Below, piece by piece: positions 485-10,052 of a stretch of DNA of 24,363 bases. Position 1 is the first letter of the stretch; each line of letters opens with the position of its first letter. The notes beneath the pieces were generated by a model, which did not search any database, was not told where the DNA came from, and saw nothing but the letters and a program-made list of their open reading frames with translations. A program made the translations under genes and the position numbers. The stretch covers positions 1-24,363 of the IMG/VR virus record IMGVR_UViG_3300009152_000200; one strand, given 5' to 3'. This DNA is from a virus.

Positions 485-1465
485 ATGGCTGTGCCTTATG
501 AAATTATTAGCAGAGCGCTAAAAGACATTGGTGCATTGGAAGCTGGTGAAACTCCTACTCCAGACGCAGCAAAAGATGCGTTTGAGATGATGAATGACAT
601 GATTGACCAATGGTCAAACGAAAACATGATGGTTTTCAATGTCACAGAAATCATTTGCCCCGTTATTGCTGGACAGACCCAATACACGATTGGCCCTAAC
701 CCATCGACCCAGAACTTTATTGGTGCGTCTTTTATAGGCTCAATTTCTGGCAACATTTTGACCGTGACTGGCATCAACTCTGGTGCTTTGGCTCAAGGTC
801 AGACTTTGAGTGGCACAGGCATCACGGCTGGCACAAAGATTACCCAACTGTTGACTGGCGCTGGTGGCAACATCAATGAAGTTGGTACATACCAAGTCAA
901 TATATCGCAGACTGTAGCCTCCACAACAATTACTGGTTACTACCAAAAGCCTTTAAGTCTTGATTCTGCGTTTGTTAGGGTAAATACTACATCTAACGGT
1001 CAGCCCATTACAGGCGGTGGTTTGGACTACCCAATGTCAATTTTGGCATTGCAAGACTACGAAATGATTGGTTTGAAGACGCTGAACGGCCCTTGGCCTA
1101 AAGCGGTTTACTTTAACCCAGGCTCTGATTCAGGCAACCTTTTCATTTGGCCTAGCCCATCGCAAGGTGAGATGCACTTGTTTGCCAATACCTTGTTTAG
1201 CCGTTATGACTCAATGTATGAGGACATAAACCTCCCACAAGGCTACGCAATGTGCCTCAGATGGTGTTTGGCAGAGCGTTTGATGCCCATGTATGGCAAG
1301 GCCTCACAAACGCAAATAGCGATGATTCAGACCTTTGCTGGTCAGGCCAAAGCTACGCTGAAACGCACCAATATGTCGCCATTGCAGACTGCACGTTACC
1401 CTGACGCTTTGTTGGTTAACAAGGCAAAAGATGCGGGTTGGATTTTGTCTGGCGGCTTTATTTAA
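485..1465 (+). CDS. P22 gp4-like tail accessory factor (neck protein) with an inserted domain
   Basis: In P22, gp4 docks under the portal and starts the neck that seals the head after packaging; this 326-residue protein probably does the same. The N-terminus ([20 protein letters not shown], then a helix with [15 protein letters not shown]) and the C-terminal region ([19 protein letters not shown]) match the family pattern as I know it. P22 gp4 is about half this length. Part of the excess is a glycine/threonine-rich insertion at residues 83-151, which also occurs twice in the next gene. The gene begins after an AAGGAAT ribosome site and lies 9 bases upstream of the gp10-like gene. The family call is from memory of its motifs. 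Confidence 0.85.
731..937 (+). repeat. Inserted Gly/Thr-rich domain, copy 1 (in gp4-like protein)
   Basis: Residues 83-151 of the gp4-like protein follow the pattern G-S-x-x-G-x-x-LTVT-x-x-x-SG-x-x-x-x-GQ-x-L-x-G-x-G-x-x-x-G-T-x-IT-x-L-x-TG-x-GG, then GTY and SQTV-x-S-TTITG. The same pattern recurs at 1871-2062 and 2087-2284 in the next gene. The alternating hydrophobic/Thr strands suggest a small beta-sandwich. The flanking sequence (ending PSTQNFIGA before it, starting YYQKPLSLD after it) would read through as one gp4-like domain, so this looks like an insertion. Confidence 0.75.
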
Positions 1466-1474
1466 GGGGCTGAT

Positions 1475-3475
1475 ATGCCAGATTTCGCATTTGTCGGATC
1501 AGCTTATGAAGCGCCAAGCATTTATCAAGATGCGCAAGAGTGCATCAATTTCTTTCCTGAAGTTGATCCTACTAAGCAGCCTGGTGAACGCGGTGTAATT
1601 GCGCTTTACCCAACGCCAGGACTTACGGTTAAGGCAGTATTGCCAAACCAACAAGAAGTGCGTGGGCTTCATTCTGTTTCTGGTGGTGAGCAACTGATCG
1701 CGGTTTGTGGGCCTTATGTTTACGCCCTGACAGCCAACCTTGTCCCCTCTGTTATTGGCTTACTTAATTCCAGTACAGGAATAGTCCGCATCACAGATAA
1801 CGGTGTCAACGTCTATATTGTTGACGGTGCTTATCGTTACACATGGTATATCTCAAGCCCTGCAACAGCCGTGTTTACTGGCTCAACCAGCGGCACAACT
1901 TTGACCGTGACAAGCGTGTCTAGTGGCACTATTGCTGTTGGACAATCTTTATACGGTGTTGGTGTTTTGGCTGAGACCGTAATTACTGGTCTTGGATCAG
2001 GAACTGGCGGTGCTGGTACTTACACGATCAACAGAAGCCAAACAGTAACGTCTAGAAGTCTTAATTCAGCAAATGTTGGTGCGGTTGTTACGGCAACTAT
2101 TGCGGGGACTGTGATGACAGTTTCTGCCGTAACGTCAGGTTCTTTGCACGTTGGTCAGACCGTTCAAGGCGCTGGTGTTACCCTTGGCACGATCATCACG
2201 GCTTTAGGAACTGGTACTGGTGGCACAGGAACATACACACTAAGCACTTCTAGCACCGTTGCTGTTGGCGTGACCATGTACGGTCTGAACTTCTCAGTTT
2301 TACCATCTACAGATGGTGCGTTTAGCGGTGCAAACACGGTTGATGTGATTGACAACTATATTGTCTATAACAACCCAACGACTCAGCAATGGGGTTCTAC
2401 CGACCTTTTGTCGCCTATTTCGCCTAATACTAGCTATTCGCTAAAAGATGGCGCACCAGATGATTTGGTGGCTTTGATTGTTGATCACCGCGAAGTCTAT
2501 TTGATGGGTGAGATTTCGTCAGAAGTCTGGACGGATGTGGGTGCTGTGCCTTTCCCATTCCAACGAATTCCTGGCACATCGACTCAACACGGTATCGCAG
2601 CGCCATTTTCTGTGGCACGCTTGGGCAACTCTTTTGCTTACGTTTCCCGCAACAATCGTGGTCAAGCCCAGATCATGCAAATGCAAGGGTATATCCCACA
2701 GAGGATTTCTACCCATGCCGTTGAGAATTCTTTGGCAAACCAATATGTTGGCGATGCAATTTCGTGGACTTATCAGCTAGAGGGCCATGAGGTCTTTGTT
2801 GTCACATTCCCATCGTTGCAACTGACATGGGCTTATGACATTACCACTCAGATGTGGCACAAATGGCTTTACACAACAGATAAAAATGTTTATCAGCGTC
2901 ACCGTGGCAACTGCTGTGCAACTTTCCAAGGTCTAGTCATTGTTGGTGACTATGAAAACGGCAAGCTGTACGAATTGGACAAAAAGAACTATACAGATGA
3001 CGGTCAAAATGTCCGCAGATTGCGTAGAGCGCCACATTTGGTGACTGAGTTCCAGCGTCAATACTTTGACGAATTGCAGATTCAGTTTCAGCCTGGTGTG
3101 GGGACTACTGGCTTGTCTGGCCCTGCCCAAGTTACGAGTTCAAACACCGTATATTTAGGTAATACATATACAATTACACCTAGTGCCGAATTGGATATTG
3201 AGGCTGAAAAAACCTATATTTTGGCGACTCAACAATCCATTAGTTTTGTCACTACAGATAACCCACAGGCAATGTTGCGGTGGTCAAATGATGGTGGCTC
3301 AACTTGGTCAAATGAATATTGGGTCAGCGTTGGTCAACTTGGCAAGTACAAGAATCGTGCCATCTGGCGCAGATTGGGCATGGCTCGTGATCGGATTTTT
3401 GAAGTTTCGGTAAGTGATCCAGTCAATTTTGTGATTATTTCAGCAAACTTGAAGATGCAAGGGGCGGAAAACTGA
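1475..3475 (+). CDS. P22 gp10-like packaged-DNA stabilisation (head-completion) protein
   Basis: The 666 residues resemble the P22 gp10 family, which forms the middle neck ring and holds DNA in the filled head. Recognisable parts are the N-terminus ([30 protein letters not shown]), the central beta-propeller-like region ([41 protein letters not shown]) and the C-terminus ([41 protein letters not shown]). P22 gp10 is roughly 470 residues, so this one is much longer. The extra length is two tandem Gly/Thr-rich domains (residues 133-196 and 205-270) and probably a third insertion near residues 546-593. It starts after AGGGGCTGAT and ends in a TGATG overlap with the next gene. Confidence 0.85.
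1871..2062 (+). repeat. Inserted Gly/Thr-rich domain, copy 2 (in gp10-like protein)
   Basis: Residues 133-196 of the gp10-like protein: [19 protein letters not shown], then [10 protein letters not shown], then [11 protein letters not shown], then SQTVTS. The residue pattern is the same as in copies 1 and 3. At the DNA level only short stretches are shared, for example TTTGACCGTGAC with copy 1, so the copies have diverged and are not a fresh duplication. Confidence 0.75.
2087..2284 (+). repeat. Inserted Gly/Thr-rich domain, copy 3 (in gp10-like protein)
   Basis: Residues 205-270 of the gp10-like protein: a start [14 protein letters not shown], then [10 protein letters not shown], then [11 protein letters not shown], then STSSTVAVG. 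It follows copy 2 after a linker of about eight residues, so the two form a tandem pair inside the N-terminal half of the protein. Confidence 0.75.
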
Positions 3476-3714
3476 TGGCTACTTCTGGACTTTCAACCAC
3501 TCAGCAAGTTAATCCTTATCCGCAATCTGCGTTTTTGGATGCAAATACGCAAAGACCGACAAGAAGTTGGCAACAATTCTTTCTTAATTTGTTAAACTTC
3601 AGTAGTGCAACTACGGCAACTGCTGGTTCTGGTACTTTGCCCAGCAATCCTGTTGGGTTTATCAATGTCACAGTAAACGGTCAACCTTATAAAGTTCCTT
3701 ATTACAACCCATGA
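3475..3714 (+). CDS. Small structural protein of the neck/tail region, unknown function
   Basis: 79 residues. The sequence has FLDANTQRPTRSWQQFFLNL in the first half and ends in NPVGFINVTVNGQPYKVPYYNP. A closing GFI-x-V-x-V-NG-x-x-x-x-(I/V)PYY motif is familiar to me from small phage structural proteins that follow gp10-like genes. Its place in the operon matches that of the P22 tail-needle gene, but the protein is far too short to be a needle. It starts in a TGATG junction with the gp10-like gene and ends in an ATGATAA junction with the acetyltransferase gene, so the three genes are translated together. Confidence 0.7.
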   Translation: MATSGLSTTQQVNPYPQSAFLDANTQRPTRSWQQFFLNLLNFSSATTATAGSGTLPSNPVGFINVTVNGQPYKVPYYNP

Positions 3715-4163
3715 TAACTTTTCAAAAAGAACTAATTTCAACATTTGCAAATGATGCAATGGTTCTTTTTAAAGAGCATTATGAAGAACTTGCAGAACGT
3801 ACTGATGTTATAGAACTTGACCCCGACTTTGAACGGTATCAAACTCTAGAAAACGCCAAGATTTTGGAAATACATACAGCACGAGACGATGGCAAATTGG
3901 TTGGTTATAGCTTGTGGGTGGTGATTAACCATTTGCACTATAAAAAGAGCGTCACGGCTAGTTCTGACATTCTCTACATTCACCCTGAATATAGAAAAGG
4001 TATGTTTGGATATAAGTTCTTAAAATGGACAACCGAGGAAATAAAGAAGCGGTCGCCACAAAGGATTACGTTCCACATGAAGCCGTTTCTGGACTATGGG
4101 CATTTAGTTGAAAGATTAGGTGGTCGTTATTTTGAAAAAACCTATTCAATAGTTTTGGGGTAA
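3711..4163 (+). CDS. GNAT-like N-acetyltransferase
   Basis: 150 residues, the usual length of a single GNAT domain, which moves an acetyl group from acetyl-CoA to an amine. The acetyl-CoA-binding motif A is seen at about residues 87-106 (ILYIHPEYRKGMFGYKFLKW): a strand, then R-x-G-x-x-G before the helix. This departs slightly from the classical (R/Q)-x-x-G-x-(G/A). The preceding strand (LVGYSLWVV) is the usual beta-4 strand. The gene overlaps the one before by four bases and ends three bases before the first ejection-protein gene. Its place inside the virion cassette suggests a target on a virion or host protein, but the substrate is unknown. Confidence 0.75.
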   Translation: MITFQKELISTFANDAMVLFKEHYEELAERTDVIELDPDFERYQTLENAKILEIHTARDDGKLVGYSLWVVINHLHYKKSVTASSDILYIHPEYRKGMFGYKFLKWTTEEIKKRSPQRITFHMKPFLDYGHLVERLGGRYFEKTYSIVLG

Positions 4164-9509: not shown

Positions 9510-10052
9510 ATGGCAGTTAATCTTGCACCCATTGGTAACGGTTTCCAATTCTTTACCAGCACAGGCATTCCCCTTAATGGTGGATATATCTACACCTACC
9601 AAGCTGGGTCTAGCACTCCTCTTGCCACTTACACAACGGCTGCTGGCACAATTGCCAACACCAACCCAATCCAATTAGGAACTGATGGTCGCCCCCCACA
9701 GGAGATTTGGCTGACTGAAGGTTACTCATACAAGTTCATCTTGACAGACTCAGCCGCTGTCCAGATTGCTACTTACGACAACCTGTATGGCATTTTGGGA
9801 ACAGCCGCAAGCACCAACCCAATTCCCTCTGGTGGCATCATCATGTGGTCTGGCTCTATTGGTTCTATCCCTGTTGGATATTACCTGTGTAACGGCTCTA
9901 ACGGCACACCAGACTTGCGTGACCGCTTTGTGGTGGGTTCTGGTAGTACCTATGCTGTGGGTAATACTGGAGGCTTTACGTCAAACGTAGCGGGTTCTGG
10001 CGGTACTAATCTGCCCTTGTACTATTCATTAGCATTCATTCAGAAAGCATGA
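9510..10052 (+). CDS. Short tail fibre with collar-type domain
   Basis: 180 residues. Residues about 1-95 form a virion-binding domain typical of podovirus fibres and tailspikes (GIPLNGGYIYTYQAGSSTPL, ATYT, PIQLGTDGRP, YKFILTDS). Residues about 103-150 resemble the phage tail-collar domain (SGGIIMWSGSIGSIPVGYYL, CNGSNGTPDLRDRF, VVGSG). A short end (LPLYYSLAFIQKA) follows. There is no long shaft, depolymerase or chaperone domain, so host binding must use this small tip or another protein. AGGAAAATAAC gives a ribosome site before the ATG. The protein is complete, since the stop is followed at once by the next gene. Confidence 0.85.
   Translation: MAVNLAPIGNGFQFFTSTGIPLNGGYIYTYQAGSSTPLATYTTAAGTIANTNPIQLGTDGRPPQEIWLTEGYSYKFILTDSAAVQIATYDNLYGILGTAASTNPIPSGGIIMWSGSIGSIPVGYYLCNGSNGTPDLRDRFVVGSGSTYAVGNTGGFTSNVAGSGGTNLPLYYSLAFIQKA

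Follow-up and report, generated by a model that had tools for sequence, protein, structure and literature searches.

We identified one ~68-residue Gly/Ser/Thr-rich domain that occurs three times in two adjacent neck proteins of a widespread lineage of short-tailed phages, once in a gp4-like head-tail adaptor and as a tandem pair in a gp10-like hub, both encoded in the window (the whole 24,363-nt stretch of viral DNA that we analysed; Table 1). On balance, we favour a reading in which this is a promiscuous decoration domain that entered the gp4-like protein first and the gp10-like protein later as a pair, would face outward on the neck, and would play a passive role there. The analysis singles out a common yet unnamed virion domain and links it, through probable kinship, to a solved decoration protein; it also suggests that neck ring proteins, usually taken as conserved plumbing, may double as display sites.

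The initial annotation had placed three copies with a shared motif at residues 83–151 of the gp4-like protein and at residues 133–196 and 205–270 of the gp10-like protein, and had described them as differing much at the DNA level. Local BLOSUM62 scores between the copies were 153 (A-B), 137 (A-C) and 170 (B-C), against a maximum of 77–84 among 500 shuffles per copy pair, and a search of the whole window with the consensus recovered exactly three copies. The positions and the motif were as claimed, and the limits shifted a little, the model-based ones being slightly wider (Table 1). Copies B and C were 45–50% identical to copy A in protein sequence, and DNA identity among the three copies was 54–58%. 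A recent DNA duplication is ruled out by this DNA identity together with the fixed, diverged state of the copies. The gp4 copies have a 4-residue insertion in the GTGG loop (GGNxNE) that is missing from the gp10 copies. Scans with Pfam and with NCBIfam yielded no model in either that covers the domain.

Table 1 Copies of the inserted domain in the window and the two proteins that carry them
Feature	Window positions	Strand	Basis
gp4-like head-tail adaptor, 326 aa, with copy A	485..1465	+	phrog_12985, P22 gp4 profile, AF2 fold
Copy A, gp4-like residues 80-152	722..940	+	alignment, AF2 model, absence in insert-less relatives
gp10-like hub / packaged-DNA stabilisation protein, 666 aa, with copies B and C	1475..3475	+	phrog_578, 7eeq
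Copy B, gp10-like residues 132-200	1868..2074	+	alignment, AF2 tandem model
Copy C, gp10-like residues 203-271	2081..2287	+	alignment, AF2 tandem model, weak match to 8eci_1

The proteins that carry the insert resemble, in profile and fold, the P22 gp4 and T7 gp11 adaptors on the one hand and the P22 gp10 and Pam1 needle-head hubs on the other. The gp4-like protein matched phrog_12985 (E = 8e-42) and, weakly, the Ad3 adaptor family, and its profile matched the P22 gp4 structures 8eb7, 8eao, 8tvu and 4v4k at E = 2–4e-4. Its AlphaFold2 (AF2) model was matched in Foldseek by podophage adaptors with a probability of 1.00 and by T7 gp11 with a probability of 0.99; both this profile relation and the helices-with-beta-extension fold are those of the P22 gp4/T7 gp11 type of adaptor. 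The gp10-like protein belongs by sequence to the P22 gp10/head closure Hc3 family: it matched phrog_578 (head closure Hc3) at E = 2e-95, PDB 7eeq (Pam1 needle head) at E = 7e-14 and 9vyg at E = 1e-9, and the Pan3 stabilisation protein was also among its matches.

The isolate relatives of gp4 and gp10 that we aligned lack the insert, with the exception of Xanthomonas phage PBR31, whose gp4 has a divergent one in the same position. The gp4 proteins of P26218, EBPR1, VvAW1, PAE2, DSL-LC05 and others (~234 aa) align without it and run scarlessly from the YTIGP strand to the RP strand, and insert-less gp10 proteins (~470–490 aa) pass seamlessly from the YxWxIS stretch to the FSVL stretch; it is by this alignment that the gp10 insertion loop is placed. 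Two Manatee Spring genomes have the insert in gp4 and none in gp10. Since the insert-less relatives have seamless cores, we conclude from the alignments that the three segments are true insertions and not core strands, in agreement with the inserted domains proposed by the initial annotation.

A profile search over 319 loci found 540 domain copies in 357 ORFs. In the 339 ORFs that were gp4-like (174) or gp10-like (165), every copy lay at a single site per protein. Gp4-like ORFs had one or two copies; gp10-like ORFs mostly had two, with three in thirteen ORFs and four in one (L234), and the six gp10-like ORFs with a single copy were apparently short or truncated. Among 215 distinct loci with both genes, counted after insert-less gp10 relatives had been added, the gp4/gp10 copy numbers were 1/2 (121 loci), 1/0 (66), 1/3 (11), 0/0 (8, meaning no recognisable copies), 2/0 (8) and 2/3 (1). 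Copies in the larger relative records (33–38 kb) were in neck-gene-sized ORFs, with one clear exception, a 509-aa ORF with one copy. Because the gp4 and gp10 sites naturally tolerate zero to several domains, a role in neck decoration would be testable by removal of the insert.

Fixation of the copies at one site among close relatives is also what would be expected if the segments simply belonged to the core strands of these two folds, gp4 and gp10. However, homologues without the insert keep seamless cores, unrelated proteins carry the same domain, and L234 has undergone tandem expansion to four copies. We regard the core-strand interpretation as extremely improbable, and rejected it on the strength of the insert-less relatives. 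As far as the analyses were run, the segments did not emerge as core strands in the models, and relatives did show a boundary at these points.

In several gp10-like ORFs (L068, L067, L033, L041, L082, L016, L021 and L073), a different Thr/Gly-rich block separates the two domain copies. This wedged block reads VAITGTAGQFSC...GYTNPTTYYIIATN..TTFTLSATLGGAAITTTAGTP and is repeated in some loci. The gp10 site is therefore an insertion hotspot.

AF2 predicted a four-strand fold common to all three copies. The tandem B-C model (pLDDT 88, pTM 0.80) has strands in the order long-short-short-long, twice. In the gp4-like model (pLDDT 79, pTM 0.67), for which the alignment consisted of the window and fetched viral loci only, copy A was mostly predicted at pLDDT 85–95 with one weaker loop, and its strands span residues 80–99, 107–109, 118–122 and 134–152. 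Copy A lies within a beta region (residues 52–236) that is flanked by helix pairs.

Among solved structures, the closest fold to the domain was, for both models (built from different alignments), the decoration protein of the Arthrobacter phage Bridgette (PDB 8eci chain 1, 8eci_1). The tandem model matched it with a Foldseek probability of 1.00 (E = 0.049, rmsd 2.9 Å over 70 columns, 27% identity), and the gp4-like model with a probability of 0.99 (a weak E of 0.2, rmsd 2.3 Å over 83 columns). Two sequence queries also matched 8eci_1 at weak E values of 0.66, where the copy C region aligns, and 0.81, and the domain and 8eci_1 have in common the motif G-x-T-(V/I)-x-x-(A/G)-G-(V/I)-x-x-GT-x-IT; a pooled single-domain profile did not match 8eci_1. 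Because the fold and sequence lines agree but each is weak, we consider kinship of the domain with the Bridgette protein probable. The fold match from two models lends support to the decoration-like nature suggested earlier for these segments. The Bridgette protein is a capsid cementing protein, dimeric around pentons (PMC13033339). It is a free capsid protein, whereas the domain described here is built into two neck proteins.

As a small, promiscuous beta domain on capsid, tail and fibre proteins with a probable accessory surface role, the domain resembles the Ig-like domains of tailed phages (Fraser et al. 2006, as cited in PMC13033339 and PMC13320782), but it is made of two long and two short strands and lacks an immunoglobulin fold. 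An Ig fold was rejected: antibody-type Foldseek matches had probabilities of ≤0.04, and the Pfam scan returned no Ig family.

The initial annotation had also suggested that similar repeats occur in many virome phage proteins. Such wide use was supported, as we found the domain in decoration, cement, capsid, tailspike and fibre proteins. The inserted segments alone matched PHROG 21413 and PHROG 38233 (tail fibre) at profile positions of about 397–466 and 551–628; these are whole-protein families, in which this stretch has no name of its own. Individual occurrences were in a lambda-gpD-like decoration protein (PF02924; L315), three times in tandem in a cement/minor capsid protein (PF23982; L312), in a pectate-lyase tailspike (L297) and in several fibres. 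Predicted viral structures with the domain comprised a gp10 relative, an HK97 capsid protein, collar proteins, fibres, a pectate lyase and Indivirus collagen-like proteins. The domain thus shares with Ig-like domains a promiscuous distribution in virion proteins. With the tandem model as query, two collagen-repeat proteins of Indivirus ILV1 were matched in BFVD, A0A1V0SCQ2 (E = 6.5e-13, 42% identity) and A0A1V0SDM6 (E = 3.6e-9, 33% identity).

Three of 300 genomes of one bacterial order, the starting genome included, carried the domain. In INPHARED, six records matched copy A, including Sinorhizobium phage tail fibres. A tblastn search of the bare gp10 copy against phage records gave no match; since copy A retrieved six records, this blank probably reflects the low-complexity filter. 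A search of 399 genomes from one bacterial order for relatives of the gp4-like protein (E = 1e-20, no positive control) gave no match and hence no pointer to a host. Copies were also present in large proteins of bacterial contigs that are not phage-virion-like (L313 4026–7112, L317 3177–5993 and L318 2775–5942). Our search of the open literature found no description of the domain in neck proteins. We conclude that the kind of trick is known, and that the family and its location are new.

The copies had been described as old or acquired separately, which a domain-free core tree of 95 loci sharpened to a likely order of events, an older gp4 insertion and a single, later gain of the gp10 tandem pair. 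In this tree, which came from a quick search and has insert-less outgroups on long branches, presence of the gp10 pair changes exactly once: the 53 carriers form one clade (support 97), nested in a clade of 87 rows that have the insert in gp4 (support 100). Among the loci examined, there was no clear case of a one-copy gp10 intermediate. As regards an origin of copies B and C by duplication within gp10, a single clade of gp10 copies was neither recovered nor rejected (p-AU 0.14, vs 0.34 for the gp4 copies).

Values of dN/dS were 0.070 for copy A vs 0.062 for the gp4 core, and 0.120 and 0.119 for copies B and C vs 0.100 for the gp10 core, and copy A distances tracked gp4 core distances with r = 0.82; in these comparisons the pairs are non-independent and dS is near 0.8–0.9. 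Judged from these sequences, selection on the copies is purifying and close to that on the host proteins, and inheritance of the copies after the gains appears to have been mainly vertical. Free swapping of the domain between phages is unsupported, as copy distances follow the host protein.

We propose that the repeat is a self-standing beta domain with four strands, one member of a promiscuous family of virion surface domains. It would have entered the gp4-like adaptor first, in a loop of its beta part, and a tandem pair would later have been placed in a loop of the gp10-like hub. The adaptor count is 12 and the nozzle count 6 in T7 (PMC6702177), and Peru-2 likewise has a 12-fold adaptor and a 6-fold nozzle (PMC13320782). 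With these usual podophage numbers (12 adaptors, 6 hubs), 12 + 12 copies would surround the neck, ~24 per virion. From the capsid, decoration, fibre and spike proteins that host the family, we infer a place on the outside of the virion, and for the copies in the assembled neck ring we presume an outward orientation. Their most likely role would be passive decoration, in which they would stick weakly and multivalently to polymers of cell surfaces or the environment, shield the neck, or both; specific receptor recognition is not the role that we favour. Weak host contact has been proposed for the Ig-like vertex protein of Peru-2 (PMC13320782). More tentatively, the domain may define a new and widely shared viral decoration-domain family, spanning tailed phages and, going by one structure match, collagen-like proteins of a giant virus, that here would make the podophage neck a multivalent adhesive collar of at least 24 domains.

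The main rival to outward decoration is that the domains are part of a fibre-docking belt, where they would secure the short fibre of 180 residues or serve as a brace between the two rings. The beta domain of the T7 adaptor is a fibre dock, and T7 fibres are held between docks on the adaptor and the nozzle (PMC6702177); copy A is likewise inside a beta region between helix pairs, both adjoining ring proteins have gained the same domain, and the copies are under strong constraint and follow the protein that carries them. Nevertheless, gp4/gp10 pairing is not obligate, because 66 loci combine a single copy A with a gp10 free of the domain and 8 have no recognisable copies in either protein. Copy number is also variable (1–2 in gp4, 2–4 in gp10), and the domain occurs in proteins without a fibre dock, namely capsid and decoration proteins. 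P22 gp4 itself has no fibre dock (PMC6702177). We consider a docking or bracing role rather improbable, and prefer outward decoration.

Charged residues make up 0–4.5% of the domain and one aromatic is conserved, which leaves no usual sugar-binding platform; there is little sequence support for specific sugar binding. Selection is purifying and not diversifying, nor does narrow specificity suggest itself for one domain family shared by unrelated phages and even by a giant virus. It is true that the mycobacteriophage Douge has surface Ig-like domains that label the surface of host cells (PMC13033339), and that the fibre protein in the window has just 180 aa, which makes other host contacts plausible. 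Even so, we think it quite unlikely that the domains are specific carbohydrate receptors for host surface sugars that help to set host range.

Elsewhere in the window, a fibre-like protein with a collar-type domain is encoded at positions 9510–10052, and no large tailspike or needle family was matched by the window ORFs that were scanned. An acetyltransferase-like ORF (3711–4163) lies between the neck genes and a Gly-rich 515-aa ORF; PBR31 likewise has an acetyltransferase in the corresponding region. The gp10-like protein also contains a third, unrelated insertion of ~45 residues near its C-terminal part (window positions 3146–3289, residues ~558–605), which takes another form in cta1H496 and is absent from ctn9Y15 and others.
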